DNA from: Tyzzerella sp. | GTDB taxonomy: Bacteria; Bacillota; Clostridia; Lachnospirales; Lachnospiraceae | Direction: 5' to 3' | Length of the DNA: 64,000 bases | NCBI GenBank assembly: GCA_017416155.1 | Contig: JAFQDE010000013.1 | Coordinates: 1 to 64,000 of the forward strand | Shown: positions 28,872-60,600 of the stretch, piece by piece | How positions within the stretch are numbered: position 1 is the first letter of the stretch | Layout: the number at the start of each line of letters is the position of its first letter | Position numbers and translations under genes: made by a program | Notes under the pieces: model-generated | Told to the model about the DNA's origin: nothing | The model's input: the letters and a program-made list of their open reading frames with translations, nothing else | Databases searched by the model: none

Positions 28872-29142
28872 GTCTTCTTTACGTGCGTTGCACTTCGAAC
28901 TCCTTTCACGAACGTTACCTCTGCAGTTAACTCAGCCCAGGCACCCTTGCGGCACCCGGAAGGTTCTACTTAGTGCTGCTTCGTTCCCGACCTGACACGG
29001 TTCATAGATTTCCGTCGCGCAAGACCCAAACCTCTACGCCACTTGCAGAGGGCAGCTTCACAAAAGAAAGCCCTCCATGCAACATCACCCCTACTATAGC
29101 GGATTGTAGGTACAAGGTACCGCTAACACCCCGGCTGCACGG
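28872..29142 (-). ncRNA. ffs: signal recognition particle RNA, large bacterial type
   Basis: The domain IV core GTCAGGTCGGGAACGAAGCAGC lies at 28975-28996 (minus strand; first half GTCAGGTCGGGAACG, then AAGCAGC). It carries the asymmetric loop bound by Ffh. The 5' part (about 29090-29140) reads like the Alu domain of Firmicutes SRP RNA, with GGGGTGTTAGCGG and CCGCTATAG. The long helix 5 is closed by GTTGCA (5' side) and TGCAAC (3' side, 28885-28892). Ends are approximate. It guides cotranslational targeting with Ffh and FtsY. A consensus promoter lies just upstream. Confidence 0.93.
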
Positions 29143-44074: not shown

Positions 44075-45223
44075 TTACTCTCCTCTTTCTTTCAACAATT
44101 TCCCCAGTGTCGGCGCGACATGGAAAAATTTTTCTAATGCCAAAATACTCTCCTGATTATTTTTCTTCTTCCCGGTCTTTACCGCACGAATCAAAATATT
44201 CTTCGGTGTATGTTCCATATCAATAAATTCTAAAATCTGCGTGTCATATCCCTCGCTTTCCAGATACTCTGCACGCATTGCATCCGTAAGCAGCGCTGCC
44301 ATTCTCTCTTTAATAAGACCATACTTGAATACCGGTGCAAGCAGCTCATTTTTCATCTGTCCGTTCAACTCATGTTGACAGCATGGCACAGAAAGAATAA
44401 CTTTGGCATTCCAGCTAACAGCCTTATCCAAAGCAAAATCGGTCGCCGTGTCACAGGCATGAAGTGTCACAACCATATCAACCTCATCCACACCGGTATA
44501 ATCCGCAATGTTTCCTTCTAAGAATCTTAATTTCTCATATCCATACTTCTCACTGAGTTCATTGCAATGACGAATCACGTCTGTTTTTAAATCCAGACCA
44601 ATAATTCGCACATCGTACTGCTTCAGCTCATGTAGGTAATAATACATCGCAAATGTAAGATATGATTTCCCGCAGCCGAAGTCTAATATCGTCACTTCTC
44701 GATTCTTATCCAATTGAGGCAAAATATCCTCGATAAATTCTAGGAATCGATTAATTTGACGGAACTTATCAAACTTGGTTCTCACAATCTTTCCCTCTGC
44801 AGTCATGACTCCAAGGTCTTGTAAGAATGGTACCACTGTACCCTCTTGTAAAATATATTGCTTGCTACGATTGTGCGACAAATCCACCTGCTTTACACAG
44901 CCTGCCTGCTGTTTCTTCTGAATGGTAACTTTCCCCTTCTTACTCACCAATACAGTATATCGATATTGCTTTGTTTCCATCTGCATCTGCTTGAACTGCT
45001 TCACATAGTCCACAAGCACATCTACTGCCGGCTCTGCTTCATAATTATTATGAAACACCTGGTTGTTCTTATGCTCTTCACATTGGAATAAAAGCACATC
45101 CTTCTTAAGTATCGGACGCACTTTTACCTTTTGGATACCACCTTTATCTTTCGGATTGCTGAGAGTGGCTCCAAGGAAATCTATATTTAAACTTTGTTCT
45201 AATAATTCTCGAATCTCTTTCAT
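44075..45223 (-). CDS. SAM-dependent methyltransferase (Methyltransf_32 type)
   Basis: 382 residues. Residues 1-130 are an N-terminal accessory domain. The Rossmann methyltransferase follows with ILDFGCGKSYLTFAMYYYL (about 179-197; SAM motif), LDLKTDVI and the late motif SVPCCQHELNGQ. The last is shared with a family of RNA-methyltransferase-like proteins. Substrate unknown, perhaps rRNA or tRNA. It starts after GAGG and is divergent from the GGDEF gene, 142 bases away. Confidence 0.85.
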   Translation of the reverse strand: MKEIRELLEQSLNIDFLGATLSNPKDKGGIQKVKVRPILKKDVLLFQCEEHKNNQVFHNNYEAEPAVDVLVDYVKQFKQMQMETKQYRYTVLVSKKGKVTIQKKQQAGCVKQVDLSHNRSKQYILQEGTVVPFLQDLGVMTAEGKIVRTKFDKFRQINRFLEFIEDILPQLDKNREVTILDFGCGKSYLTFAMYYYLHELKQYDVRIIGLDLKTDVIRHCNELSEKYGYEKLRFLEGNIADYTGVDEVDMVVTLHACDTATDFALDKAVSWNAKVILSVPCCQHELNGQMKNELLAPVFKYGLIKERMAALLTDAMRAEYLESEGYDTQILEFIDMEHTPKNILIRAVKTGKKKNNQESILALEKFFHVAPTLGKLLKERGE

Positions 45224-45365
45224 TGGATACCTCTATTAAATAATATCATTTTATATTTTACTCTATTTTAATGGAATTGGAAAGATGATTGTGATGAAAT
45301 TTGACGGAAGGCATGAAATGTGATAAGGTGTAATTACATAACTTTCCATCATTAGAGGAGACAAC

Positions 45366-47669
45366 ATGCATACAAAACGACAATATATCAGTAAAAAAAT
45401 ATTACATATTCTTCTCGTAGGCACAGCAATCAGTCTCGTATTAGCCTTCGTAATGAGTTACATATACAAGATAGAAGAAGACGCAGCATATGAAACATTA
45501 CATTTGGAGACAAGACATATAAAAGAAGATATCAATCTCCAAATTATATCAGACCGAGAAAATCTGACAACCATAGCAAAAATGATTGCCAAATTATATC
45601 AGAACAACGAATCTTATAATCTTATGTTCGAAGCGTTTGAATCCATTGGTTTGATTCAGGAGATTGAAATTCTCCTTCCTGATAATACACTTCTTACAAA
45701 GACCGGTTCCATTGATGTCCGTGACGATATATCATTTGCAGACGAAGCAAAAAAAGATACACATGTTACAGGTAAAGTTTCTTATTTACAAAATGAGAAG
45801 GAAGACGTTGTTCGTAGTGTCGTACCTGTGCTTGTAGATGACCAGACAATTGCTATTTTATATGGTGTCATGGATTTGGATGCTCTGGAAAACAGATACA
45901 TTGACAACATTGAAAAATTAGGTGCGCAGCTCTTTGTTTTTGAACAAGATAGCGGAGAATTAATTATCGATACTGTAAACGATGACCTTGGAAATATTTC
46001 TTTTCTAAAGGACAGAGAATATTTGAAAAATTTTTCGTACGAAAAGATGATAACCGATATCGCGGCAGACGAACCGGGTTATTCTGCATTTGTCTCTACA
46101 GTCTTTGCGGATGATTTTTATATACACTATGCTCCAATGGCTGTTGGTGAATGGGAAATCATTCTTGGACTCCCCGGGGCAGTTGTATTTTCAAATGCGA
46201 ACTATATCACAAATATACTTCTGAATGTATGTGCTACGATTATCCTGATTATGGTTGCTTACATTTTTCTTGTGTTATACGATGAACGCCAAATGACAAG
46301 CATGAATAATTGTGTTGCAAGAATAAGAAAGCTTCTATTAGAGGTCAATTATCGTGAAGACAGTATTCTAACCGCATTGGGACATATAGCAAAGCATGTG
46401 AGATCAACTTCTGTCTTTCTAAGAGATACAGACGGTGAATCATATGATTATATGACGACGGGAACAGAGGATTTTCTAAAAGATAAAAACGAAAAGAATT
46501 ATTTCTCTTCCGAATTATTTGACTATGCAAAGAAACTTCATCCGAATCACAGTGTAACCATTCGTGCTACGGAAATAAAAAGTAAAAAGAAGAACGAAGA
46601 TCTTTCACCTCTGTTCTGTGAATTTTTAGTGGAACATGACATTGAAAAGATAACCCTTGTTTCAATTGTTGATAAATACGAGCATTTTACGTTGCTGGGT
46701 GTCATCAACTCGAAAAAGAAACAGCTTGTCACACGATTGCTGGCAGAGCTTGCCGTATGTTTCTCAATTGCACTCTACAACAGAAGCTATCTTCTCAAGA
46801 TGGAATGTGCAGTTGGAACTGATTCTCTCACAGGTGTCATGAATCGAGTTGCCTATAATAGAAATGTCAAACAAATAAGGAAACGAAAACCGGAGCAACT
46901 TGCATGTATTTATATTGATGTAAATGAATTACATGTTTTCAACAACCGTTTTGGACATGCCGCGGGTGACAGCATGCTAATCTATGTTGCAGATACAATC
47001 AAAGCTTTGTTTGAAGAACATTCCGTATATCGAATGGGCGGAGATGAATTCTTGGTTGTCGTAGAAGGTTTGACTTCTGAGGATATCCAGAAAAGACTTG
47101 ATCTCTTGGATGAGAAGTTAAATGAAAAGAAATACTATATTTCAGTTGGCTTCTCCATTAATGACGGACCTTTAGATTGGGAAAACTTGCTGAAAGATGC
47201 AGAAAAGGAAATGTACAAATCCAAGGCTCTTTACTATCTGAATAAGCAGAAAGCAAATGTTTTGGAATTATCAACAGACAGCACAAGACACATTGTGACA
47301 GGCATGAAGGAATTGGATACTCTTCTTACTATAATGGGTCAGAAGTATCTGGGTGTATACAGTGTTTCACTTAGAACCGACCAATCGAAACGTATTCTTA
47401 TGTCTGGATATTTGAATCATGAAGAAACTGAAGAAAACTTCAGTCAGATATTTAAAGAATATGTAAATGAACAAATTCATGCGGATTACCACAGAGAAAT
47501 ATTAAATCTTTTAAATTATGATATTCTTGCAGAACGAGTTTTAGATGGTGAAATCATCAAAAAAGTATATCAGAAAAACGATGGTAATATGGTTGTATTA
47601 AACATATATGTTGTAGAAAACACCAGCCATGACGTCGTAGAAACTTTATGGGTATTTGAAAATAATTAA
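45366..47669 (+). CDS. membrane diguanylate cyclase with extracellular Cache sensor
   Basis: 767 residues. Transmembrane helices at about 12-33 and 281-304 bound an extracellular dCache-like sensor (35-280). A cytosolic GAF-like region (about 315-470) precedes the GGDEF domain (485-620). The active loop RMGGDEF is intact (Gly558-Gly-Asp-Glu-Phe562), as is the substrate region DVNELHVFNNRFGHAAGD. The RxxD inhibitory site five residues before the loop is absent (EEHSVYR), so product inhibition is unlikely. A further 145-residue C-terminal domain is unrecognised. GAGGAG precedes the ATG. It converges on the riboswitch operon whose last gene degrades the same messenger. Confidence 0.93.
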   Translation: MHTKRQYISKKILHILLVGTAISLVLAFVMSYIYKIEEDAAYETLHLETRHIKEDINLQIISDRENLTTIAKMIAKLYQNNESYNLMFEAFESIGLIQEIEILLPDNTLLTKTGSIDVRDDISFADEAKKDTHVTGKVSYLQNEKEDVVRSVVPVLVDDQTIAILYGVMDLDALENRYIDNIEKLGAQLFVFEQDSGELIIDTVNDDLGNISFLKDREYLKNFSYEKMITDIAADEPGYSAFVSTVFADDFYIHYAPMAVGEWEIILGLPGAVVFSNANYITNILLNVCATIILIMVAYIFLVLYDERQMTSMNNCVARIRKLLLEVNYREDSILTALGHIAKHVRSTSVFLRDTDGESYDYMTTGTEDFLKDKNEKNYFSSELFDYAKKLHPNHSVTIRATEIKSKKKNEDLSPLFCEFLVEHDIEKITLVSIVDKYEHFTLLGVINSKKKQLVTRLLAELAVCFSIALYNRSYLLKMECAVGTDSLTGVMNRVAYNRNVKQIRKRKPEQLACIYIDVNELHVFNNRFGHAAGDSMLIYVADTIKALFEEHSVYRMGGDEFLVVVEGLTSEDIQKRLDLLDEKLNEKKYYISVGFSINDGPLDWENLLKDAEKEMYKSKALYYLNKQKANVLELSTDSTRHIVTGMKELDTLLTIMGQKYLGVYSVSLRTDQSKRILMSGYLNHEETEENFSQIFKEYVNEQIHADYHREILNLLNYDILAERVLDGEIIKKVYQKNDGNMVVLNIYVVENTSHDVVETLWVFENN

Positions 47670-47674
47670 CGCAA

Positions 47675-47706
47675 AGAACCACATGACTGCAATATCATGT
47701 GGTTCT
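47675..47706. terminator. bidirectional terminator between the GGDEF and EAL genes
   Basis: A perfect 12-bp stem (AGAACCACATGA with TCATGTGGTTCT), 8-base loop and a T-rich tail on plus. The EAL gene stop codon (47695-47697) lies in the 3' arm. It separates two opposed c-di-GMP enzymes. Confidence 0.85.
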
Positions 47707-49569
47707 CTTTTTCATATAGTTATCGTAATAATCCATAGCATTTTCTTTCGGCAATACTCTTGAATAATAAAAGCCTTGTATATAGTCACATCCATTATCT
47801 ATCACACGCTGGTTTTCATCTGCTGTTTCAACACCTTCGCATAACACCTGAATTCCCAGCTCATGCGCTAGGGTTACCAATCCACGGAGGAGCAGATTTG
47901 CTCTGTATGAAGATGATTTTGCAACAATGTGACGGTCAATTTTTATAACGTCAATCGGATAATCACACAAATCACTCAGCGAAGAATAACCCGAGCCCAT
48001 ATCATCCAATGCGATTCTAAAACCTTTTTTCTTACAAGCAAGGATATTCTGATAAGCAAGTGCCATATTATCAGCAAGAGAATCCTCAGTAAGTTCTATA
48101 ATCAGTCTCTTGTGGTCGAAAGTATATTTATCAACAACAGCATGAAAACGGCTCAAGAAATCCGGCATAGAGACTGTGATTCTGGTGAAGTTACATGAAA
48201 TTGACAAATGCTGATATTCACTTCGGTTCCATTCAGCCAATTGTTTACATGCCTTTTCAAGTATACAAAAGTCTAAGCGGTCAATCAGATTGAGGTTCAT
48301 CATATCAGCAATATAGTGCCCCGGTGCCAGCAATCCTTCTTCCTTATTGTTCCATCTGGACAAGGCCTCTGCGCCTATAATCGCTCCCTCTTGATTTACA
48401 ATGAACTGTAAAAACATCTCAAACTCATCATTGTCTACTGCATCAATAAGTCTTTTCCTGAGTCTTGCCTGGAATGCCGTGTGGTCCAATATGTCCTTAT
48501 TTGTAATACAATATAACTGTCTTTTTTCAGCAGCATAGTTATAGCCTTGCCGTGCATTGTAAATAATCGATTCCAACGACTGTTTTGCTTTTCCAAGATG
48601 ATAAAGCCCTGCGCGGAAGAAGAAATTCTTACTATTATTATTCAACTTACGAAGCAGTTCTTCGATACGCTCTGTAGCACGTTGTTCATCCACGCCTTGG
48701 AAAAATAGTACAAAAACACCACTGTCTATACGGGCAACAAAGTCATTATCTCCGATGTCAGTAGACAGGATATTTGCAGCATACTGTTGCGTCTCATCCA
48801 GTTCGCTAGTTCCTAAGTACTTTTCAAAATTCTCAGAATTGAGAGCAATATAAGTTGCATAATACAAATAGTACATAGACTCCGGCAAATAATGTTCGTA
48901 CGCATACTTTAAGTATTCAACATTTCCTATTCCTGTCAGTGAATCCGTTTTCTTGGTTTCTTCTATCGCTTTTCGTCTTCGGCGTCCAACAACTGAAAGC
49001 GATAGAGCAATCACACCTAAGACAAGCACGTTACCCAACAAATACCAAATCCAAGGACTAATCTTCTCCGGTGCAGAAGACACCGCAAGTGTGGAAGACA
49101 ACCACTCGTCCGTAGTTTTTTTCTTCAATTTATCAAGAATAACTGATTTGGTTTCCTCTGGCATAATCTCTGTAAAACCAATATTAACACTGATCTTCTC
49201 TCCATCCTTTTCATAGGTGAAAACCGTATGAGATTCTGCCAAATCAGACATTTCCTCTGTAAAAGCAGATACTAGTTCTACTTGTTTATTGGCTACAAGC
49301 CTTTTTTGTTGATTCTTCTCTCCGGCACATATATATGTCAGCTCTATGCCTGTTTGCTCTGAGAGCTGTTCATAGAAAGCCGGAAGGATTCCTTCATAGG
49401 TTTTGGATTTTTCATCATAATACTCAAACGGATAAAAATCCGGATTACCTGCAATATAGATGTTATCTCCTGCAGTGGAATTTGTTGTCGTATTCAGTGC
49501 AGCTAATGTTGTCAATGTTGTCAAACCAAACAGTAATGAAAAAATGAGTGTAGCAATATATTTTTTCAT
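47695..49569 (-). CDS. c-di-GMP phosphodiesterase (EAL) with solute-binding sensor
   Basis: 624 residues. A signal peptide (about 1-24) leads into a short periplasmic-binding-protein type 3 domain (35-165; GNPDFYPFEYYDE), a membrane helix (172-194), a degenerate GGDEF domain (210-350; ARIDSGVFVLFF replaces GGDEF) and an EAL domain (365-620). EAL residues are complete: Glu401 in GAEALSRW, Asn460, Glu492, Asp522-Asp523, Lys543, Glu578 and Gln587. Hydrolysis of c-di-GMP is therefore expected, tuned by a bound small molecule. It is the last gene of the riboswitch operon. Confidence 0.93.
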   Translation of the reverse strand: MKKYIATLIFSLLFGLTTLTTLAALNTTTNSTAGDNIYIAGNPDFYPFEYYDEKSKTYEGILPAFYEQLSEQTGIELTYICAGEKNQQKRLVANKQVELVSAFTEEMSDLAESHTVFTYEKDGEKISVNIGFTEIMPEETKSVILDKLKKKTTDEWLSSTLAVSSAPEKISPWIWYLLGNVLVLGVIALSLSVVGRRRRKAIEETKKTDSLTGIGNVEYLKYAYEHYLPESMYYLYYATYIALNSENFEKYLGTSELDETQQYAANILSTDIGDNDFVARIDSGVFVLFFQGVDEQRATERIEELLRKLNNNSKNFFFRAGLYHLGKAKQSLESIIYNARQGYNYAAEKRQLYCITNKDILDHTAFQARLRKRLIDAVDNDEFEMFLQFIVNQEGAIIGAEALSRWNNKEEGLLAPGHYIADMMNLNLIDRLDFCILEKACKQLAEWNRSEYQHLSISCNFTRITVSMPDFLSRFHAVVDKYTFDHKRLIIELTEDSLADNMALAYQNILACKKKGFRIALDDMGSGYSSLSDLCDYPIDVIKIDRHIVAKSSSYRANLLLRGLVTLAHELGIQVLCEGVETADENQRVIDNGCDYIQGFYYSRVLPKENAMDYYDNYMKKRTT

Positions 49570-49584
49570 AAAAATTTTCCTTTC

Positions 49585-49821
49585 TTATTGGTTTGTGAAT
49601 GGCGAAATAATGTTTTGAATCTGCATAACCGCATCCTGAAAGTTGTTTAATTCCTCTTGTAACGCATTCTTTTGAGCCATAAGTTCCTCGCGCTCTTTTT
49701 GGTGAGCAGATATCAATTGCTCCAACTTATCATTAAACTCCTGATTCGTTTTGGCAATGTAGTTACACACATCCGTTTTAGAATAACCAAAAAGCGCCGT
49801 TTTAAACAGTTTGTTTTTCAT
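49585..49821 (-). CDS. small DivIVA-like coiled-coil protein
   Basis: 78 residues. It starts MKNKLFKTALFGYSKTDV followed by C-N-YI; the F-GY-x-x-x-DV-x-x-Y-I pattern is the membrane-curvature-binding N-terminus of DivIVA/GpsB proteins. The rest is a single coiled coil (about 25-65). It lacks the C-terminal tetramer region of full DivIVA. It sits between the glycosyltransferase and the phosphodiesterase with about 15 bases on both sides. A role as a localisation tag for the synthase complex is inferred. Confidence 0.75.
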   Translation of the reverse strand: MKNKLFKTALFGYSKTDVCNYIAKTNQEFNDKLEQLISAHQKEREELMAQKNALQEELNNFQDAVMQIQNIISPFTNQ

Positions 49822-49836
49822 AGGTTCCTCCTGAAA

Positions 49837-51252
49837 TTACTTTATATTTATTTTTTTTCTTTCGATTCTTCCCCAATTGAGTTTCTTTTTCTTATAACCG
49901 ATAAAAGCAGTACTTCTAACAAATGCCAATATAAATCTAAGTACTGTTATCTCAAAAAAACATAAAAACAATGCTTTCAAAACATCGATAAAAGATATCT
50001 TCAAGTCAACCGTCTGTGTGCGGGCAAAGAATGCCGTCATAGTTAATGTGCAGCCAAACACTGCATAGATTAAAAAGAAAAGTAACATAAACGGTATATT
50101 GATTAAATCTACAGTAAAGGCAGCTACCATAGTTGCGACACCTAAGATTTCAATAAACGGTGACAGTAACTCGTAGAGCAAAAAGTAAAAATACGAAATA
50201 AAACTAATTGCACCAAATTTCGGACTGGCAAGCATGACCCGGTGCTTCCACATACTTTGAAACAAGCCTAAATGCCATCGTTTTCTTTGTTTGCACAAGT
50301 CCTTAAGACGTTCCGGTGCCTGCGACCAGCATATCGCGTCTGTTGCATACTTAATAGAATACGGAAGATTATTTAAAACGCAGTATTCATGAAGTTTTAG
50401 CACGAGTTCCATATCCTCTCCCATCGTGGAGTGATCATATCCGCCAGCTGCGATAACCGTCTCTTTTCTAAACAATCCAAATGCACCCGAAATAATCAAA
50501 GAACCATTAAACTTATCAAACAATATTCGAGATGCTAAGAAGGAACGGTCATATTCCAACACCTGCATGCATGCCAGTATGTTTTCAGGCAATTGATAGT
50601 TGACCACACGTCCTCTTTCCAATTCAACACTGTTGGAAGGTCTTACTACTCCCCCCACTGCTACTACGTTTTGATCCTCAATGAGCGGACGCACAATTCT
50701 GCTTAACGAGTCGTACTGCAGTACGGAGTCTGCGTCCATACATATGAAATACGGATATTTACAAGCATTAATTCCCATGTTGAGAGCATCCGCTTTTCCT
50801 CCATTCTTTTTTCTTACAAGAGTCAGTGGCACCTTGTACATAGATGACTCGTAGATAAATTCCTCCGGCTGACATTTTATTTTTCGATGAACCGGCCTTC
50901 GTATAGGCTCCATCTGAAACGCCTCGATTAATTTGCGAGAGGTTGCGTCTTTGGAACCATCATCTACAACAACGATTTCGTATAGAGTATAATCTAAGGC
51001 CAGAAGAGACTGAACTGTTTCCACTACAGTGACCTCCTCATTATAGGCCGGAACTATAATACTAATTGGTATGTAATAATCTCTAAGCAGAGAATTTTTA
51101 AAACGCTCCTGTCTCTTCTTTCTGTACAGTTCAGAAGAACCAATCACAACCGATAGGAACAAAAATGACGAATACCCAATTAAATAGATTACGAAGAAAA
51201 CATTGATACAGTCCAAGATCTGTTGAATAATTAAAAATGTTGAATTACTCAT
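49837..51252 (-). CDS. processive family 2 glycosyltransferase (polysaccharide synthase)
   Basis: 471 residues of the BcsA/PgaC/HasA type. Membrane helices at about 12-40 and four or so after 345 flank a cytosolic GT-A domain. The motifs of processive synthases are present: DDG (97-99), DAD (173-175), GED (278-280) and Q322-RKRW326 (QxxRW). No PilZ domain is fused, so any c-di-GMP control would be at transcription or through partners. Product is unknown: a beta-linked glucan or hexosamine polymer is most likely. Its start overlaps the HEAT gene stop by eight bases. Confidence 0.92.
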   Translation of the reverse strand: MSNSTFLIIQQILDCINVFFVIYLIGYSSFLFLSVVIGSSELYRKKRQERFKNSLLRDYYIPISIIVPAYNEEVTVVETVQSLLALDYTLYEIVVVDDGSKDATSRKLIEAFQMEPIRRPVHRKIKCQPEEFIYESSMYKVPLTLVRKKNGGKADALNMGINACKYPYFICMDADSVLQYDSLSRIVRPLIEDQNVVAVGGVVRPSNSVELERGRVVNYQLPENILACMQVLEYDRSFLASRILFDKFNGSLIISGAFGLFRKETVIAAGGYDHSTMGEDMELVLKLHEYCVLNNLPYSIKYATDAICWSQAPERLKDLCKQRKRWHLGLFQSMWKHRVMLASPKFGAISFISYFYFLLYELLSPFIEILGVATMVAAFTVDLINIPFMLLFFLIYAVFGCTLTMTAFFARTQTVDLKISFIDVLKALFLCFFEITVLRFILAFVRSTAFIGYKKKKLNWGRIERKKINIK

Positions 51253-52336
51253 AACGATTCCTTCTTTCTGCTAATCTCTTTTGGTCAAACCGATATCGAA
51301 GCATTTCCCCGGCATAACGATCCTTTCCTTCAAACACATCAATCAGCTCTTCATATCGAAGTCCCAACTTGTTAAGACTCTCTGCGGCATTATAACGAAC
51401 ATACCAATTTGGATTACACAGAAGCACTTTAAGTACACTAATTGTTTTTTCGTTTGGATAAGAAGCAAGCGCTGACGCAGTGATTGCGGTATATTCCCAA
51501 AATGGTTGCTCTTGTTCTGCAAAATCATACAAAAAAGAAAGCGCCGGTTCGTAAGGATACCTTGCAAAATATCGAATACAGTTGTATCTAATTTCATCCT
51601 CTTCCTTTTTATCAATCATGATACGAAGGATTTTTTCACAATAATCTCCGGACGAAAACCGAAAATAATTGAGAAGAGTTACACGCATTGTGGTATGAAA
51701 AGAAAAGAAGTTTTCCCAAATCTTTTCATCCAGTTCCAGACGATTGCCCTTAAATAATAGCAATCCGTCATATATCATTTTGGAATAATGATAAAATTCA
51801 CTCTTATCCAATATCTTTAAAGCTTCCAAAACACTATTGGCATTTCCTATGGAATAGAGCGCCTGAAGAGCATTTTCCCGACAGTACAAGTTTTCGTCCT
51901 TTACCAATTCCAGCATCGCATCCGTAACAAGTGTAATATTCAGCCCTCGCAAAATATCATATTTATTGATGATATAAGGGAAATATGCTGCCTTAATCTT
52001 CTCTTTCTTTAGGTATTCCAAAGTTAGATACACAAATACAGAAGACAGCTGGCGGATATAAGTCTTAACTCTATCCGGATCCTTTTCATAAGCACGCTCT
52101 AAAGCCTCATCAAAAGCCATCAAATAATTCACTTTCGTCAACTTTTTAGAAAGGTCTTTCAAGTGCTTTTCATCCGGTTGCTCTAGTTGAATTTGCTTTA
52201 AAATATCCTCAACAAAACGATTGTTGCAACGAAGAAGCACCTTGTCTCGTCTATGAAAATAGTAAATGCACACTATATTAAAAATAATCATAGAAACACA
52301 AATCGCAAGATATGTGTATATGAGTGTTTCAACCAT
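51245..52336 (-). CDS. membrane-anchored HEAT-repeat protein
   Basis: 363 residues. One N-terminal membrane helix (4-27) is followed by cytosolic helical repeats. HEAT-like units are visible at about 145-175 (ENALQALYSIGNANSVLEAL) and 285-335 (NEKTISVLKVLLCNPNWYVRYNAAESL in parts). Such scaffolds often couple to glycosyltransferases in Firmicutes polysaccharide operons. It overlaps the synthase gene by eight bases and follows the glycosidase gene by three, so coupled translation of a complex is likely. Confidence 0.82.
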   Translation of the reverse strand: MVETLIYTYLAICVSMIIFNIVCIYYFHRRDKVLLRCNNRFVEDILKQIQLEQPDEKHLKDLSKKLTKVNYLMAFDEALERAYEKDPDRVKTYIRQLSSVFVYLTLEYLKKEKIKAAYFPYIINKYDILRGLNITLVTDAMLELVKDENLYCRENALQALYSIGNANSVLEALKILDKSEFYHYSKMIYDGLLLFKGNRLELDEKIWENFFSFHTTMRVTLLNYFRFSSGDYCEKILRIMIDKKEEDEIRYNCIRYFARYPYEPALSFLYDFAEQEQPFWEYTAITASALASYPNEKTISVLKVLLCNPNWYVRYNAAESLNKLGLRYEELIDVFEGKDRYAGEMLRYRFDQKRLAERRNRYE

Positions 52337-52339
52337 TTT

Positions 52340-54511
52340 TTATTCCTTCCAAATTCCTTGTAACATATAATAAGATAATTTAAGACGTTCATGATAGGTA
52401 ACGTCATTTCCCCAAGGTTCCAGCTCTTTCTGGTGTAATTTGATTCTACCCTCTGTGGCGCCGTCAGTGCATCCCAGGTACATACAATCAATACCGGTGG
52501 GTTCAATACCATAATTGCCAGTATAATAATCATCGTGAATTTCCATTTTAGATGGGTCGCTGAAATTTAGCAGTTGCCACGGTAATCGTATTTCTATATA
52601 GTCACCCTTCGAGTAGAAATCACTCAGGGAATCATAATTCTTACTCTCAGGATTTGCATTTCCATAACGAAGTTTCCCGGTAGGAAATACCTCCGCCTGC
52701 AATATTTTTTCGCCTTGTATTAATTGATTCATTTGTAAAATAATGTTCACATCTACAAATTTTGGCGAATCCACATCCGGAATATTGTTTTTTACATAAG
52801 TATCAAATCCGTAAACTTCTCTCGAATAATTGGCACGCAACACCTCATAGCGCTCCTGAACCAGTAGTGAAGAGTTGTTAGAACCATTTACAAGCAGCAA
52901 AAAGTCAATTGCTTTATCAAAGAGCAGATTATAGTTTTCACAAAAACTACTTCCACTTTTCTGTGTTGTGTCAATTGGAACATAGAATATTTCCTCTTCA
53001 AACTTTAAGTTAGGTTTGTGAATCATCAGATATACGGAGGCCTCATCGTACTTCATGGATAGCGTCATTCCATTATCCTTTGCAACAATGTCTTCTTTTG
53101 TCCATTCTGAGACATCTCCATCCACATAGCATATACTCTCTTTTTCACCTGGGTCAAAGGCAAGTAATCCGAAATACTGCTCATTAGTCTGCATGTCGGA
53201 CCAATAAGGTGTACGTTGGAAATTAACTGCATGGTTTGTATTCCAAGTACGCTTAAACCATTCATCCTGCCAAGAAAATACACAACAACCCGCGCATCCG
53301 GAAGATACAATATCTTCATAACAATCAACCAGTGCCTGGCCTTGCTGCTGTTCGTTCATATGTCCTTGATTTCGTCCTGTGTTCACATCTTTATGAGCAA
53401 TTCCTCGTCCTGTAGGAACACCAAACTCTGAAATTACCACCGGAATTTTATGATGGGTAGCCAGTGCATCCAGATATAACTTATACGTATTCATTGTGCC
53501 ATCTTGATAACAGTCTTCCGGATGAACTTCAAAATTGAGTTCTGACCAATCTTTGACATAGACAAGATAATCTCTGTAATATGGATACGCATGGTAGGAT
53601 GCAAACTGTCCTGACAAGACCTTTTCCGTTGTTTTAATATTTTCTACGTCCACAGAAGCACATTTGTCAAAGAAGTCTGTAATATACTCCGGATACGTAA
53701 ATGGATCCGTAATCGGCCAGTTTGAAAATGCAACTAACTTCTGTGTCTTGTAACGCTCTGATTCATATTCGAGGACCTTATCTCCTACTCGTGCAAGCAT
53801 AGCTTCAAACGGAGTTGCCTCTTCGGAGGTGAACATATATTGTCCCCTGTATGAATTATACTCATCATCATTCTTGTATTTGTCATTTGTATAGGCAACC
53901 AACAAATCTTCCCATTCCACACCGAGTATGTAACCGATAACCCATTGCGACACATCGTTCATATAAGATCCATGTCCTGCTGAGGCACGTCTGCCTAACG
54001 AAAGTTTTCTGTTTCCGTGAATAATGTCAATCATGGTTTTGCAGTCTGATACAAAGTTTTCATACAAATCCGGATGATATGCATCCCGATATGAATTGTG
54101 ATAATAATCATTTACCCATACGCCGTGGATAAGCCAAAGCGGATTCGGATTATTCAGATTATATTCATAAAAGGCTTCGTAGAACGTGTCGTTATGAATC
54201 GTATATATACGAATGGTGTTCGCTCCCAATTCTTGTATGTCTGCAAACCAACGGAGATAGGTCTCCTTGTCTGCCCCAAAGTTTGTGGACCATTCTCCGG
54301 GAATACCGGAACCGATATCTACGCCTTTGATTTCGAATTTTTCATAACCATCTCCTGAATCCATATAGATATAGTCATCCCGTGTGGTAATAAATGTAGT
54401 TACCGGTTTTTTCGGCTCAAAATCCATATAAATTCCCAATCGATAATAACAAGTATCCGCCAGGAGAATGAGGCAAATAATGATGGAAACTGTAATAATA
54501 AATTTCTTCAT
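52340..54511 (-). CDS. membrane-anchored TIM-barrel glycoside hydrolase with C-terminal beta domain
   Basis: 723 residues, one N-terminal helix (4-20). The barrel starts near 55 (GVDIGSGIPGEW; GANTIRIYTIH). The candidate acid/base is Glu199 in IGYILGVEWE and the nucleophile Glu362 in VVISEFGVPTGRG; these sit at the ends of strands 4 and 7 as in clan GH-A. Trp-rich FSWQDEW closes strand 8. Residues about 480-720 resemble a carbohydrate-binding CBM9/DOMON-like fold (YVDGDVSEW; DEASVYLMIHKP). It may trim or transglycosylate the operon's polymer outside the cell. Confidence 0.82.
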   Translation of the reverse strand: MKKFIITVSIIICLILLADTCYYRLGIYMDFEPKKPVTTFITTRDDYIYMDSGDGYEKFEIKGVDIGSGIPGEWSTNFGADKETYLRWFADIQELGANTIRIYTIHNDTFYEAFYEYNLNNPNPLWLIHGVWVNDYYHNSYRDAYHPDLYENFVSDCKTMIDIIHGNRKLSLGRRASAGHGSYMNDVSQWVIGYILGVEWEDLLVAYTNDKYKNDDEYNSYRGQYMFTSEEATPFEAMLARVGDKVLEYESERYKTQKLVAFSNWPITDPFTYPEYITDFFDKCASVDVENIKTTEKVLSGQFASYHAYPYYRDYLVYVKDWSELNFEVHPEDCYQDGTMNTYKLYLDALATHHKIPVVISEFGVPTGRGIAHKDVNTGRNQGHMNEQQQGQALVDCYEDIVSSGCAGCCVFSWQDEWFKRTWNTNHAVNFQRTPYWSDMQTNEQYFGLLAFDPGEKESICYVDGDVSEWTKEDIVAKDNGMTLSMKYDEASVYLMIHKPNLKFEEEIFYVPIDTTQKSGSSFCENYNLLFDKAIDFLLLVNGSNNSSLLVQERYEVLRANYSREVYGFDTYVKNNIPDVDSPKFVDVNIILQMNQLIQGEKILQAEVFPTGKLRYGNANPESKNYDSLSDFYSKGDYIEIRLPWQLLNFSDPSKMEIHDDYYTGNYGIEPTGIDCMYLGCTDGATEGRIKLHQKELEPWGNDVTYHERLKLSYYMLQGIWKE

Positions 54512-54525
54512 ATTGCATGTTCCTC

Positions 54526-56004
54526 CTATTCTGTGTACTCGTTATATAACTTTGCTTTGGACTCAGCTGAAAATTGTCTAAGAATATCTATATTATCATC
54601 CATCCAATCGCCGCGCTCTTTTAAAAAGTCTTTTAGTTGAAGGACAGCTTCTTCATATCCTGCCGGATTACGGTCTGCCGGGTACAAAAGTCCCTCTTGT
54701 TTTTCAAACGCATAGCCCCATACATCATAATTCCTCGTGATGGCATCTCCCAAATACTGAATCGTTTCATCAATATAGTTGTTGAGATATTCCTCATTCA
54801 AGTAACTTTTACGAAGCTCTTTATATGTTTTTATACACTGCTCGGTAAACTCTTTGTCCTTCATAAACATAAAATACCAGATTTTATCTTGGAAGAAAAA
54901 GTCTTCTCTGTTTACCACGCTTTCCTGATAATTGTCGCAACTGTTATTATAATCCCATACACACATACGAAACAGTCCGTCCAAATCCTTATAGATATAT
55001 GTCGAATAACTACCGGCATCGTAGTTGCAGGTAAATTCATTTATGATGAGATATTTTACAAAATTATCAACATCTATAGTCTCTTCATATCCATGCGATT
55101 TGCTATCATAATCAAAGGAATACATCGTCTTCTCAAATGCATTGAAATCATCCCTGATGCCTTCCGCTATCTCCGATGTAAGATTCGATGTGCCTGGATA
55201 TTCAATATTCATTTGAACACCCCAAATACGATATGTATATTTCGTAAATGTTGACAGGTTCTTCAGTCCATTTTCGCTACCGCGATCCAAACGCAGACAA
55301 TATCCCGCAAAAGAATTGTCTTTTTTGTCGACAGAAAGATTCAATCTGGAGCCGTTCTTTCCGGCACAAATCGTCTCTGTCATTAAGTACAGCCCCTTAT
55401 ATTCTCCGTTGAGTATCACCTCACAGAACCTAACATTCGGAGAATAATCCATAATCTCTCCGGCAATGTTATACCACATGTAATTGCGCAACAACGTTTT
55501 ATCAAGAAACGGACCATGAAGTGCCCATTCGTGATGTGCGTCCATTCCCATTACCTCTTGTGGGTTGTTTTCACCGGATGAAGTAACGAAGTTTAACAAA
55601 TACCCCTTTTTATCAAACTCTCTCGAAGAATTTCCTCGAATTCTGATATAGGCACCGCTTTCCATATCTGCTTCATCATCTATATGATGATTCACGCCTT
55701 CTCTGTCCTTGATTGCAACACGACATAATAGTTCCGATTCACCGGTCGCAGTCGTGGTATACTGCGTCTTTTTCGATATCGGGTCATGGTAAGCAGCACC
55801 CGGAATCTCTATTCCGTCCGTGTAAATCTCCACAAGTGGCAGATGGGTACACAAGGTGTTATCCATATGGTTACATGACTTTGGAACCTCTGCCTGCAAA
55901 TGCTGATGATACCTGCCCTTATCCTCCGTTCGAAAAAGCGGTACAGCAATAGAGAGTATAAGAACCACTGCACATGAAATAATACCAATGATCTTATATT
56001 TCAT
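54526..56004 (-). CDS. CotH-family protein kinase-like protein, exported
   Basis: 492 residues. A signal anchor (4-24) puts it outside the membrane. The CotH kinase fold carries IRIRGNSSRE (120-129), HGPFLDKTLLRN (163-174), GLYLMTE (204-210) and WDYNNSCDN (350-358). These correspond to the conserved CotH ATP- and metal-binding motifs. In Bacillus CotH phosphorylates spore coat proteins; here no spore gene is adjacent. The substrate might be a surface protein or carbohydrate. It sits 14 bases before the glycosidase gene. Confidence 0.88.
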   Translation of the reverse strand: MKYKIIGIISCAVVLILSIAVPLFRTEDKGRYHQHLQAEVPKSCNHMDNTLCTHLPLVEIYTDGIEIPGAAYHDPISKKTQYTTTATGESELLCRVAIKDREGVNHHIDDEADMESGAYIRIRGNSSREFDKKGYLLNFVTSSGENNPQEVMGMDAHHEWALHGPFLDKTLLRNYMWYNIAGEIMDYSPNVRFCEVILNGEYKGLYLMTETICAGKNGSRLNLSVDKKDNSFAGYCLRLDRGSENGLKNLSTFTKYTYRIWGVQMNIEYPGTSNLTSEIAEGIRDDFNAFEKTMYSFDYDSKSHGYEETIDVDNFVKYLIINEFTCNYDAGSYSTYIYKDLDGLFRMCVWDYNNSCDNYQESVVNREDFFFQDKIWYFMFMKDKEFTEQCIKTYKELRKSYLNEEYLNNYIDETIQYLGDAITRNYDVWGYAFEKQEGLLYPADRNPAGYEEAVLQLKDFLKERGDWMDDNIDILRQFSAESKAKLYNEYTE

Positions 56005-56026
56005 TATTCTTTAACCTCCTCGGTTA

Positions 56027-56704
56027 TTAGTTAGATACCTCATCATTTTGCATCACAATATTAACATAATCTATATTCCCGAGATCATATAAAGCATCTA
56101 CAATATTGCCACTTTTCGCTTCTGCTTTTTTCAATACGCTGGCAGAAACTTCATAAATAAATTCAATGTTGTACTCCGTTGTGTTTCGCACACGAAGATT
56201 GACTTTTTGACGAAATACCTTAAACATATACGCCTGAATAGACGGCTGTTTATTGCGAGAAGCACGTATAATAATAAGCATTCGGTTGTCATTTTTAATA
56301 CAGCCCAAGATAAAGAAAACGATAAAGGTAATCGTGCTTCCGATTGCGGCTACAACGTAATCGCCGACTCCACAGCATATACCTACAATCACAGTCCAAA
56401 ATATGTATATCGTATCTCTACTGTCTTTGATAGCAGTACGGAAACGAACGATGGAAAGAGCACCGACCATACCTAACGACAGAGCAATATTGTTGCCGAT
56501 AACTGTCATCACAGTTCCGGTAAGCACGGTAAGGGCAACCAGAGATGCGTTAAACTTTTTGCTGTAAATAGTACCTCTGTGTGTAATTAAATAAGAAATA
56601 AATATAACAAATCCAAGAACCGCTGACATCACAATATTCATAGCAATGTCTTGTGTTGATAAGTTTCCTGCTTCTTTAAATAATGTGTAAAGTTGTTCTC
56701 TCAT
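56027..56704 (-). CDS. DUF4956 membrane protein
   Basis: 225 residues starting at MREQLYTLFKEAG (GGAGG upstream). Four hydrophobic helices (about 22-140) carry GMVGALSIVRFRTAIKD, the DUF4956 signature, and a soluble C-terminal beta/alpha domain (145-225; VRNTTEYNIEFIYEV) follows. The family is almost always linked to VTC and CotH genes, as here. Exact role unknown; it may gate or couple polyphosphate transport. Confidence 0.86.
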   Translation of the reverse strand: MREQLYTLFKEAGNLSTQDIAMNIVMSAVLGFVIFISYLITHRGTIYSKKFNASLVALTVLTGTVMTVIGNNIALSLGMVGALSIVRFRTAIKDSRDTIYIFWTVIVGICCGVGDYVVAAIGSTITFIVFFILGCIKNDNRMLIIIRASRNKQPSIQAYMFKVFRQKVNLRVRNTTEYNIEFIYEVSASVLKKAEAKSGNIVDALYDLGNIDYVNIVMQNDEVSN

Positions 56705-56718
56705 GGTAAATCCTCCAA

Positions 56719-57414
56719 TCATATATGTGTTTGATACCCCTGTTGTCTTGCAAGACAATATTTGCTGACGGATATTTCGCTTCGATCAATACTGTTGATG
56801 GCATCTCTGATATAGCCAAGTAGGAATCCATTGAATTTTACTTCCATAACTACATCATACATGTCCAGAACAGGATTCATATTCAGGTGTTCTGAAAACA
56901 AATCGAAGCAGCTTTCTGTAGCAACTATCTGATTATCAAAGGTAACACGAATCTTGTTTTCCTTTGCAATAAATGCTTTTCTGTTATACTGCACGATTGT
57001 CTTAGGGCGATAACATTTCATATGCATATATGCGTACAATTCTGCTGCAAACGGGTCTGCATATCGAAGCAGCGGCGAATAATCGCAATCTATAAGGCGG
57101 AGTGCGTCTTCCCTTGTAACCTTCAAAGAACGTTTAAGCTGCTGCGCTCCTTGTTTTTGTTTCATTTCGAGCATTGCATAATCTTGGGACGGGTCATAGC
57201 ATCGAAGCCTTATTTTCCTTCGAAGTTCGATACCGGCCTGTTTCTCAAAAAAATCATCATCAAACGGCGTGTCAAAGTACAGCGATCGAATCATGTACCC
57301 ATGCGTTCCATTGTGACTATCCTGCATCATGATAGATTCCAAATAATGACTTTTTTGTCTGAAGTCATCAATGCTTATTAAGAATTTCTTCTCCTCTCGG
57401 AATACTTTGTTCAT
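56719..57414 (-). CDS. VTC-domain (polyphosphate polymerase-like) protein
   Basis: 231 residues from MNKVFREEKKFLISIDDF (GGGAG upstream). It has the beta-tunnel VTC/CYTH-like fold: EEKKFLI (7-13), RSLYFDT (43-49), LRRKIRLRCY (64-73), MLEMKQKQG (81-89) and VVMEVKFNG. The basic strands RKIRLR and KRSL and the acidic E-V-K position match yeast Vtc4 catalytic layout. It lacks SPX, so phosphate sensing would differ. First gene after the c-di-GMP riboswitch; DUF4956 follows by 14 bases. Confidence 0.87.
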   Translation of the reverse strand: MNKVFREEKKFLISIDDFRQKSHYLESIMMQDSHNGTHGYMIRSLYFDTPFDDDFFEKQAGIELRRKIRLRCYDPSQDYAMLEMKQKQGAQQLKRSLKVTREDALRLIDCDYSPLLRYADPFAAELYAYMHMKCYRPKTIVQYNRKAFIAKENKIRVTFDNQIVATESCFDLFSEHLNMNPVLDMYDVVMEVKFNGFLLGYIRDAINSIDRSEISVSKYCLARQQGYQTHI

Positions 57415-57435
57415 AATTTGTTTCTCCCAAATAAC

Positions 57436-57474
57436 AAAAAAGGCTGCACACCCAATAAAATTGAGAATGCAGCC
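57436..57474 (-). terminator. expression-platform terminator of the c-di-GMP riboswitch
   Basis: A perfect 7-bp stem (GGCTGCA with TGCAGCC in the transcript; plus-strand arms at 57442-57448 and 57468-57474), a 19-base loop and six U (57436-57441). Its 5' arm overlaps the 3' edge of the aptamer, so aptamer folding and termination should compete. Confidence 0.85.
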
Positions 57475-57541
57475 GGTCAATCATACGACTTTATCGCTTA
57501 GACACCTTGGCTTTGCGTCCTTATCTTTCAATAAGTTTGCC
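57470..57541 (-). promoter_or_regulatory. c-di-GMP-I (GEMM-I) riboswitch aptamer
   Basis: The transcript reads GGCAAAC, then a 6-bp stem closed by a GAAA tetraloop (CTTATT-GAAA-GATAAG), then GGACGCAAAGCC, the conserved ligand-binding block. The second stem carries TCTAAG and TATGA, the 11-base tetraloop receptor pair of this class, and ends GACCGG. Every hallmark of GEMM-I is present. A TATATT -10-like box lies at 57556-57561 just upstream. The aptamer precedes a VTC/DUF4956/CotH/glycosyltransferase operon. Confidence 0.95.
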
Positions 57542-57666
57542 AACATAATATTACTAATATAGTGTGCCACAAAATAGGCGGAAAGTCAAGTTCGCTTTTA
57601 AGACAACTCTTTTAACAAACACCCTACATATTATCTCAAATCTGCCAGAAACATGTCGCTTTCTTC

Positions 57667-60600
57667 TTATTCTACAATGAAATAGTATTCCGCCTCTGCG
57701 ACAGTAACTAAACCTAGTTCTGCAAAAAGATACAGACGATAACTACCAGGATTATTACCTGCAAGGGAAATGAATACTTCTTGTGTTCCCTCTTCACCGT
57801 TAAAACTTATTTCTTCGGTGACGGCCGTACTGCTGTAGTCGCCACTTTCTGTTTTTACCATCAAAACTACTTCGAGGTTATGATTGCTTGGCAAATCATC
57901 CCACGAAACAGTTGCCTTAACTGTTTCATTTAATGCATACAACTTTTTGTCGCCGCTTATTTTAAGAGATACCGGAATGGTCTCAATTCCTTCTATAAGC
58001 AGCTCTGCATCAGCCACACAAGCAGCATTCATTGGAGACTGCTCTGCGATTGATTTTGCGACAATCCACTCAACATCAAAAGCATATTCTGTAGAACCTT
58101 CCGGCAACAAATGCGATATTAAAGTTATCACAATTTTTCCTTCAACTATATCAGGCATCGAATAAACAAAATTACCCTCACAGTTTGAATATACCACGGT
58201 TGTTGCATCCCCACATACAATTGACAAATGTGCATCCGCAGGCAGTTTGGAACGAGGTATAAACACAAGAACGTCATCTCGATTATCCCACTTCGATGCT
58301 GCACCTTCTGACTTTGTATGTAAGAAAGTAATTTCACCAATTGTTCCACTATTAAACAATTCGTATGTGCTTTCGTTTCTCAGATTGGCAACCTCGTCGT
58401 TTTCCTTTGCTGTGGCTCTCGAATTAGCTTTCGTCGCCGCCGAGATTGTTGTCACAATCGTATCACCTGTAATTTTCTCTTCAGCCTGAGAAAAATCAAT
58501 CACAAGCTGTAAATCCATATTACCTTCCGGCAACACAAACTTACTCTTTGCTTGATCACCCATACGTATAAAATCTGTCAAAAGTACTTTGGTTGTACCA
58601 GGAGCAGCAATCATCATCCAATAATAGGTACCGTTCGTATTATCCTGCATGATAATTGTTGTTCCCTCAGGTAGTTCCGAGCTAAAAGAGATTTCCAACG
58701 GATCGTATTCCGTGTCGGAAAAGTTGCTCACCAAAAACGACATTGTATAGGCTGAATCACGACTAATAGTCGCCGTATTCGTAGAAAACTTTCCGAATAC
58801 TTGCTTCTCTGTAATATGCGAATCAATTTCAAGATTCTTTTGAGCATCAGGAAGTGTAAGGGTTATCTTGCAGTCTTTCGGAATGTTACCTATGGAATAA
58901 GTATATGAAAAGACATTTTCAGGAGATAACTTCGCCTGAGCATTATTCTCTGCTTTCTCGGTTTGTATGGTCGCTTTATAACCAATCGGGAAGAAATATC
59001 CATCCTCTGTACTGATTGATATTTGAATACCATTGACAGTAACATCCGTTCCATCTGCTGTAAGAATGATATACTTAACACCCTCGCCACATACCACAAC
59101 AAACTCTACGTTACCGACAAAGAAGTACACGCTATCTGCAACGGACTCAGGAGAAGCATTATAATTATCACATTCGCTGTAACGAGCTTGAATATAATAA
59201 TTTGTCAACGCCTTATCCAAGGTAAATTGAATTGCATATTTTTCATCAATTAGTGTTTCTGCTCCTTTTGCCCATTCAGTACTCTTCTCAACTCCAGATT
59301 CATAATATACGATTCTGTATTCCGGATACGAAGTATAGGTATCATCAGTGCCCACAAGAGAAGAGTTGGCTACCGGTTTCACACTCAAAATGGAGCCATC
59401 TGCATCTTTCTTGTTCGTGTCAAACACCGGCTTCGGAGGTGCCGATTGATCTGCTTTGGCTATTGTGTAAGTAACACTTGCCGTATAACCATTTTCTGTG
59501 ACACTCACTTTATAATTTCCAGCATGATATGGAAGCCCATCGACAAGAGCATCGCCGTCTAGCGCTTCATATACTATTGTCGGTTTCCACGAATCTGATG
59601 TATACACAATAGTTGCCGGATGAGTTTTCTTGTTATATGTTGTGTTCTCAGCAGACAAACGCGCTTCTTCACTATATTTACCACAAGAACATTCTCTTTT
59701 CAGTGTTTTGCCATTGTCAACAACTGAGTAACTATAGTTGTGTGTAGTAGGATTATGGTCACATTCTTTCCATTGAGCGAATAAGGTAACAACCTCACCC
59801 TTTTTTGTGGTTAAATTTGTAACCATTTCTTCATCTGCATAAACCTTTGATGAACCATCCGAATCTTTACACCATCCCACAAATTCATAGCCGGGACGTC
59901 TATACTGATTCTTACTCAATTTGATTGGCAAATCATAGGTAAAATTGAAATTTTCCATCTTGCCGGTGTAAGTCTCGCCAGACGGAACATTTGGGTTATA
60001 GACCACCGTATATCCATTGGCCTCCCATATAGCATAAATTGTCAAATCACCGATAATTGTACCATCAAACAACTTACTATCGCCAACTTTATACCAACCA
60101 CGGTCATTGTTATATGTACCTTGCGGGTAGTCATCCAAATTCGGACGACCATTCGATGTATTCCATCCGGTGATAGTATATCCCGGGTGACTGTAAATGT
60201 TACCGCTGATAGTTACAGAGTCACCATGTTTGACTTCTACCTCCTTGTACTGCCCTGTTGTAACATTTGTTATCGGGTCCGTAAAGTTTTCAAAATAAAG
60301 AAGTTTATAATACTTCTCGGATTCCGGGTTCTCACGATGATCCTTAAAATAATCATCCTTTTTAGTGATATCAACAGTGATAATATCTTCCAAACGAGGA
60401 TTGGTCATCGCTCCCCAAAGATCCATTTGTCCACCAGTAACATATACTTCATTTTGGATGTGTGTGTTACCATGATAAGATGTTTGATTATTCTCGTCGA
60501 GCTGCTCAGATGTTGCAATCGTAACTTTACCGCCATCCATCTTCATAAAATGGCTCTGTCCGTTATCCCCATCAGCCTGGCTTCCACTTTCCTCCAAACA

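Follow-up and report, generated by a model that had tools for sequence, protein, structure and literature searches.

We analyzed a 64,000-nucleotide stretch of the genome of Tyzzerella sp. (GenBank assembly GCA_017416155.1, contig JAFQDE010000013.1, positions 1 to 64,000; this whole stretch is called the window), which carries eight minus-strand genes behind a riboswitch of the class that senses cyclic di-GMP (c-di-GMP). It is probable, in our assessment, that these genes form a c-di-GMP-gated operon for making a polysaccharide of the cell surface, and that the operon carries its own off-switch, an EAL-type phosphodiesterase encoded by the last gene. An initial annotation of the DNA had proposed a GEMM-I riboswitch at the head of an eight-gene operon with tight gaps or overlaps; Rfam (RF01051, 66.4 bits), the Pfam assignments of the gene families and the measured spacing all bear this out.

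Riboswitch and genes of the operon

The c-di-GMP-I (GEMM-I) aptamer occupies positions 57465..57551 of the minus strand (cut-off 35 bits, E 8.6e-11). The expression platform (57434..57474, minus strand) contains an 8-bp terminator stem (57442-57474) and a T run: read from 57474 to 57434, the arms GGCTGCAT and GTGCAGCC flank a 17-base spacer, and TTTTTT follows the second arm. The GGCT strand that closes the aptamer lies with all 4 bases at the start of the 5' arm of the terminator. Because the aptamer 3' strand thus doubles as the terminator 5' arm, the two structures are mutually exclusive, with the ligand expected to favor read-through. The layout predicts a switch that is turned ON by c-di-GMP. 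When folded freely, the window leader adopts the terminator form at -37.1 kcal/mol, and the shorter aptamer alone gives -17.7, a comparison that is not like for like. We built an aptamer model from nine aptamers and ran it over the window and 52 loci (labeled L) in genome contigs, which had been gathered by a search with the glycosyltransferase protein of the window. This yielded 30 strong aptamers, the one in the window and 29 others, of which 9/30 match by construction. In 29/30 leaders the aptamer 3' strand contains the start of a stem with 7 or more pairs and a T-rich tract behind it (at least 5 T in 8 bases), supporting the earlier claim that high c-di-GMP turns the operon on. When the 75 downstream bases were shuffled as single nucleotides in 100 rounds, such a terminator appeared in 0.55 of the 30 leaders on average and in no more than 2. 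The single failing leader, L030, has an imperfect hairpin at the equivalent place by eye. Two R1 matches near 16 bits (L022 14638-14740, L047 5174-5266) were dropped as chance. For the genome of L022 the riboswitch search gave the same place as for G004, a genome of the window's genus. By eye, L011, L014, L030 and L047 are among the loci with a TTGAC(A/T)-17 or 18-TATA(A/C)T promoter ahead of the aptamer, and the window has a poorer one.

The first gene encodes a VTC-domain, polyphosphate polymerase-like protein (56719..57414, minus strand like all eight; PF09359, 138.9 bits; GGGAG upstream of the ATG), and the second a DUF4956 membrane protein (56027..56704; PF16316, 46.9 bits) that is weakly MgtC-like (20.0 bits, below the cut-off). 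We chose ATG starts for both, at 57414 and 56704, each with a purine-rich stretch upstream; the starts in the open reading frame (ORF) listing, 57480 and 56758, are upstream TTG codons, the former of which falls within the aptamer. With these starts the gaps along the operon measure 14, 22, 14, 3, -8, 15 and 15 bases, a spacing that supports a single operon. The third gene encodes a CotH kinase-family protein with an N-terminal hydrophobic anchor by eye (54526..56004; PF08757, 199.2 bits). It is followed by a gene for a 723-residue membrane-anchored protein (52340..54511) that resembles glycosidases or transglycosylases of glycoside hydrolase clan A (GH-A). The GH-A-like label proposed earlier gains conserved glutamate columns and weak similarity, without a Pfam match for the window copy: the protein matches the GH2-like chain 9fz9 at 1.1e-4 (0.0029 by profile), 12/25 members of its family, the window copy excluded, match GH72 weakly, and E199 and E362 are each kept in 24/25. 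We take the placement of these two residues to suit clan GH-A, and the assignment remains a weak one. A HEAT-repeat protein with an N-terminal hydrophobic segment (51245..52336; HEAT_2, 52.1 bits) is encoded next, its gene overlapping by 8 bases that of a 471-residue family 2 glycosyltransferase (GT2) of the processive type, the candidate polymer synthase (49837..51252; PF00535, 101.3 bits). In the GT2, D97/D98, D173/D175, E279/D280, Q322, R325 and W326 are invariant in 21/21 sequences, so that the D, DxD, GED and QxxRW motifs are kept; D,D, DxD and QxxRW are presumably the hallmarks of processive GT2 enzymes. The DivIVA-like label of the seventh product, a 78-residue peptide (49585..49821), stands as a sub-threshold match (22.4 bits, cut-off 28). 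The peptide has about half the length of eight relatives found by tblastn (150-174 residues), which suggests a shortened copy.

The last gene (47695..49569) encodes a predicted c-di-GMP phosphodiesterase (EAL, 204.6 bits; weak GGDEF, 32.3 bits), which places such an enzyme within the riboswitch-controlled unit, as had been proposed. The protein comprises a signal peptide-like N terminus, a partial SBP_bac_3-like domain, a transmembrane segment, a degenerate GGDEF domain and the EAL domain. Residues E401, L403, N460, E492, D522, D523, K543, E578 and Q598 are present in the window; they are kept in 23/23 EAL proteins, except for E578 in 22/23; this set follows the list of residues that we take to be catalytic. 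The GG[DE]EF motif of the GGDEF part is lost in 23/23. The N-terminal match to SBP_bac_3 reaches 18.6 bits (cut-off 26.4), and this half of a solute-binding domain may act as a sensor. Converging on the EAL gene is that of a diguanylate cyclase with a membrane sensor and a GGDEF domain (45366..47669, plus strand; 77.1 bits), again as annotated before. Its motif, YRMGGDEF at residue 558, is intact and is not preceded by an RxxD inhibitory site. A hairpin scan placed a 12-bp terminator hairpin with a T run between the two converging genes (47675..47706).

Conservation and c-di-GMP context

We mapped the window proteins onto the 52 GT2 loci and counted gene content and order. The six core genes (VTC, DUF4956, CotH, GH-A-like, HEAT and GT2) are all present in 34 other loci, and their order is identical in 34/34, so the arrangement is conserved outside this strain and passes a refutation test that the initial annotation had set for itself. 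The riboswitch lies ahead of VTC in 28/34 complete loci (in L024, 1.6 kb ahead); in L029, where VTC has no match, the aptamer precedes the GH-A-like gene. An EAL gene lies downstream in 32/34 complete loci, one of the misses being a contig end. Across all loci with more than 1 kb downstream, it follows GT2 in 48/51 (misses L025, L027 and L051; L035 ends 16 bases past GT2). Identity to the window protein is 26-45% for the 22 EAL proteins compared and 61-82% for 19 of the 20 GT2 proteins compared (L051, 49%), the two sets overlapping without being identical. Since the EAL proteins have diverged far more than the synthases, the linkage persisted while the EAL sequence changed. A few loci depart from the usual form. 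In Anaerotignum lactatifermentans DSM 14214 (L042 5168-6688, 6722-8851) the CotH gene has an early stop, and the Glu362 column is missing from the glycosidase. Several frames are broken in L048, and those of L053 (A. lactatifermentans An390) are full-length. In L024 (8332-11661) GT2 and a GGDEF-EAL protein share one open frame of 1109 residues, in which Pfam recognizes GT2, GGDEF and EAL; this is possibly a natural synthase-phosphodiesterase fusion, if the assembly of this one draft genome is right.

Diguanylate cyclases also border the unit elsewhere. Among the 29 relatives with an aptamer, 25 have the at least 1.7 kb of upstream sequence to which the test was limited, and 12 of them (12/29; 12/25 testable) have a gene with a GGDEF motif just ahead of the aptamer on the same strand, Pfam-confirmed in L031, L042 and L053. 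The stop codon of this gene ranges in position from 6 bases within the aptamer match to 259 bases upstream of it. Where it overlaps the aptamer, joint transcription of cyclase and operon is likely, because a separate leader promoter would need to lie inside the cyclase gene. In L009 and L043 the upstream GGDEF gene is on the other strand, and the remaining 11 of the 25 testable loci have none directly upstream. L006 and L039 have no aptamer, yet a GGDEF gene stands right ahead of VTC. In several loci of the Anaerotignum-like clade, such as L031 (13738-16029), the first EAL gene is followed by another GGDEF-EAL gene, whose product has a Cache-like sensor.

We surveyed the c-di-GMP network in 31 distinct genomes that hold the riboswitch-operon (labeled G; drafts included). 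The window's genome (2.07 Mb, 84% complete) has one GEMM-I, three GGDEF matches including the degenerate one, one strong EAL match (above 100 bits) and one weak one. The weak match is a 451-residue protein (L055 679-2034, contig C24) that by eye resembles a degenerate HD-GYP joined to a degenerate EAL domain and is a possible extra c-di-GMP receptor. PilZ has no match in this genome; a search for c-di-GMP-II riboswitches gave none either, but its control likewise matched nowhere, so that absence is not shown. Exactly one GEMM-I was found in 27/31 operon genomes (two in G071, G078, G082 and G089), no PilZ match in 28/31 (present in G052, G071 and G082), and both features together in 26/31. GGDEF matches number 2 to 13 per genome. 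Among the effectors searched, GEMM-I and PilZ, the riboswitch of the unit is thus a near-sole effector, within the limits of draft genomes. Neither this status nor the cyclase directly ahead of the riboswitch in relatives was part of the initial annotation. In 12/31 genomes (G000, G004, G052, G074, G075, G076, G077, G080, G081, G086, G087 and G088) all strong EAL matches are downstream of the riboswitch, at a distance of up to about 13 kb. As a second set, 61 relatives were scanned for the GH-A-like protein, found in 7, and for GEMM-I, found in 30 with stricter filters. A single GEMM-I is the rule in 27/31 operon genomes versus 13/27 other GEMM-bearing relatives (Fisher p 0.0018), a contrast that is suggestive only, as the two groups are unequal in relatedness and completeness, and stricter filters were used for the relatives.

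Proposed mechanism and alternatives

These elements suggest a regulatory cycle. A membrane diguanylate cyclase would make c-di-GMP upon stimulation of its sensor; for the window the candidate is the converging cyclase, and for one clade of relatives it is the cyclase directly ahead of the riboswitch. Binding of c-di-GMP would close the aptamer and use up the 5' arm of the terminator, allowing transcription to enter the operon. The GT2, with the HEAT protein as a membrane partner, would then polymerize and extrude a glycan, which the anchored GH-A enzyme may trim or remodel outside the cell, and VTC, DUF4956 and CotH may tune the amount or modification of the glycan. Finally, the EAL phosphodiesterase, whose sensor-like domain would face outward, would hydrolyze c-di-GMP and let the terminator re-close. 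With a cyclase outside and a phosphodiesterase inside the switched unit, delayed negative feedback is expected, giving a bounded burst or a set point. A bolder version, to which we give limited credence, is a pulse generator timed by gene order, in which c-di-GMP serves as a near-private messenger for the operon in many gut and rumen Clostridia and each firing gives a self-limited burst of polymer. Its model is the Anaerotignum-like clade, where cyclase, riboswitch, synthase genes and phosphodiesterase follow in that order, probably on one transcript: the cyclase would be made first and its product would open the riboswitch, after which the synthase would be made and the phosphodiesterase last.

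Several observations weigh against a gated operon of this kind. A strict script test, requiring at least 3 of the 4 aptamer closing bases in the terminator, was passed by only 17/30 leaders. Within the operon genes we found five weak minus-strand terminator-like matches (5-6 pairs), and, because a 10/12 promoter-like match lies at 49955-49928 (minus strand) ahead of the DivIVA-like and EAL genes, these two may have an internal promoter. Across positions 45200-58000, promoter-like matches show no excess over chance (56 versus a mean of 45.9, sd 7.2), and terminator-like matches are somewhat above it (13 versus 6.8, sd 2.7). The riboswitch is missing from 6/34 complete loci (L006, L025, L026, L036, L037 and L039), and only 3/7 relatives' genomes with the GH-A-like gene (G000, G004 and G052) have an aptamer about 3 kb ahead of it, those without one in front being G024, G028, G046 and G049. 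The existence of such loci and genomes indicates that the core genes do not need the riboswitch. On the GT2 tree the loci without it are scattered, with 5 changes (L024 left out for length); 120/500 shuffles of the labels came out as low, so the pattern is indistinguishable from shuffled labels and fits repeated loss without proving it. Strong EAL matches also occur on other contigs in 18/31 genomes, and G063 has them upstream of the riboswitch on the contig that carries it. The sensor domain may hold the phosphodiesterase off, in which case braking could lag behind expression. Work on the accessory genes of the Pel polysaccharide in Streptococcus intermedius gives a mixed picture in the accessible text of PMC12345266: deletion of the CotH gene lowered both Pel and aggregation, deletion of an MgtC/ACT membrane gene gave more Pel with lowered aggregation, and for the polyphosphate-polymerase mutant no difference is reported. 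The equation of that membrane gene with DUF4956 is our own. Two further points concern the polymer. The best NCBIfam match of the GT2, PgaC_IcaA (TIGR03937), scores 145.4 bits with a cut-off of 422.3, and membership of the poly-N-acetylglucosamine (PNAG) synthases PgaC/IcaA was rejected; in addition, the window operon has no deacetylase, the DUF4956-CotH interval included.

Because the best match of the GT2 is nevertheless a PNAG synthase, and because a gene with a deacetylase motif lies between DUF4956 and CotH in 10/36 loci (2 Pfam-confirmed), a glycan of the N-acetyl-hexosamine type is our leading guess for the polymer, held with somewhat less than even confidence. Five deacetylase-family matches occur elsewhere in the window's genome. 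We rejected a cellulose synthase of the BcsA/CcsA kind, as the 471-residue GT2 and the window's genome gave no PilZ match; PilZ and MBOAT/DHHW have no Pfam match in the eight genes of the window. A Gram-positive Pel operon was likewise rejected: the accessory VTC, DUF4956 and CotH genes stand side by side in a different order, and the pelDEADAFG core was not found. Pel families are absent from the Pfam matches of 20 window proteins (10 of or beside the operon and 10 further ORFs) and of 19 flanking ORFs of L002, L022, L031 and L053, to which the scan was confined.

Of the alternatives, the most serious accepts the gene set and changes the role of the EAL protein, which would be a signal-gated off-switch, silent until an outside cue arrives, so that the riboswitch merely stocks the enzyme for later dispersal. 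The partial SBP_bac_3 match (residues 39-136), N-terminal columns conserved in 23 members, a hydrophobic stretch after the SBP_bac_3-like part (by eye) and a degenerate GGDEF domain that could be allosteric all fit this idea. The match lies below its cut-off, however, and 9/23 aligned EAL members start without a signal peptide-like stretch (at script-chosen starts), and we consider the idea rather unlikely. It is more improbable still that the riboswitch senses 3',3'-cyclic GMP-AMP (cGAMP), in which case the EAL enzyme would not act on it as a direct brake; this is the least likely of the alternatives. At the position that we take to be the base-recognition site, and to bear on the preference for c-di-GMP or cGAMP, A replaces G in 4/30 aptamers (L002, L022, L023 and L031), whereas G is kept in the window and 25 others.

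Two other proposals concern the product. The membership of the third protein in the CotH family could point to a polymer of the spore coat or cell envelope that has no relation to biofilm, with c-di-GMP timing differentiation. We rank this low, because a spore coat operon controlled by a riboswitch would, to our knowledge, be unusual. In addition, CotH genes adjoin and act with Pel in streptococci, which do not sporulate, according to the accessible text of PMC7112168 and PMC12345266. Slightly less probable again is a polymer that is mainly polyphosphate or phosphate-modified, with VTC and CotH as the key enzymes and the GT2 making an anchor glycan only. The first gene is of the polyphosphate polymerase family and the third of a kinase family, as this proposal would have it, but in S. 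intermedius, as far as PMC12345266 is accessible, each gene of pelDEADAFG was essential for Pel and aggregation, and accessory-gene mutants still made Pel.

Relation to known systems and implications

The initial annotation knew of no described system with the full gene set, which we have to correct. The order VTC-DUF4956-CotH-685-residue protein-HEAT-GT2 is that of NELoc-2 of Clostridium perfringens, judged from the names and sizes of its genes rather than their sequences (PMC2879425, accessible text). In Table 4 of that report the membrane gene is called tubulin/FtsZ, which we provisionally equate with DUF4956 by size, and the GT2 is called chitin synthase. NELoc-2 differs in having a sigma/anti-sigma pair at its head, a duplicated VTC pair and a resolvase; Table 4 contains no EAL gene, and the accessible text mentions no riboswitch and shows no polymer function (PMC2879425). 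A polysaccharide deacetylase is reported in 18/23 NELoc-2 strains (PMC11677781, accessible text). The sigma/anti-sigma pair was not found at the 5' end of the window's unit. There, directly ahead of the riboswitch, lies a gene for an 1850-residue protein with Listeria-Bacteroides and POMP-type repeats (57667-63219, minus strand), which could be a matrix protein or an adhesin; Pfam matches nothing in the gene beyond it, which runs off the end of the window.

VTC, DUF4956 and CotH genes also accompany Gram-positive Pel. In the accessible parts of PMC7112168, such clusters have accessory cotH, polyphosphate polymerase (PPP, corresponding to VTC), DUF4956 and DUF4832 genes, to which bifidobacteria add a diguanylate cyclase/phosphodiesterase gene. 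As in the window, the three stand together beside a polymer synthase and a glycosidase; there, the synthase is pelDEADAFG and the order CotH-PPP-DUF4956, whereas in the window one GT2 is accompanied by a HEAT protein and the genes run VTC-DUF4956-CotH (PMC7112168; PMC12345266). The clostridial ccsZABHI operon likewise combines a GT2 synthase with an exported glycosidase, but its CcsA carries a PilZ domain and the operon carries MBOAT/DHHW acetylation genes (PMC7710045, accessible text). Known c-di-GMP riboswitch regulons also place a c-di-GMP-I aptamer ahead of surface genes, and ON switches are among them; here, in contrast to what the accessible text of PMC6366702 and PMC12564702 describes, a phosphodiesterase is a regular member of the switched operon. 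Outside the unit, a TMEM164-family membrane gene lies downstream in L031 (16118-16870) and L002 (17220-18011), and the window also contains a large bacterial signal recognition particle RNA (28881-29142, minus strand, 190 bits).

The core is a known gene set, and the new part is the c-di-GMP wiring around it. As far as our searches show, this novelty comprises the riboswitch linkage, the phosphodiesterase inside and the cyclase outside the switched unit, and the near-sole effector place of the riboswitch; in full-text literature, mostly without subscription journals, we recognized no paper describing this riboswitch-operon. The NELoc-2-type set, tied so far to avian necrotic-enteritis strains in the accessible literature, is given a likely trigger and is now located in commensals as well. 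VTC, DUF4956 and CotH beside a non-Pel synthase make this neighborhood wider than Pel. This extends the conclusion of PMC12345266, in whose accessible text the arrangement of the CotH/PPP/membrane-gene trio was not found outside Pel, and does not contradict it, because the order of the trio differs. The unit would be an example from nature of a second messenger whose negative feedback runs through one riboswitch. Where genomes are small and have one riboswitch, and in some cases no strong EAL match outside the operon, the logic of c-di-GMP signaling may be simple enough for complete testing.

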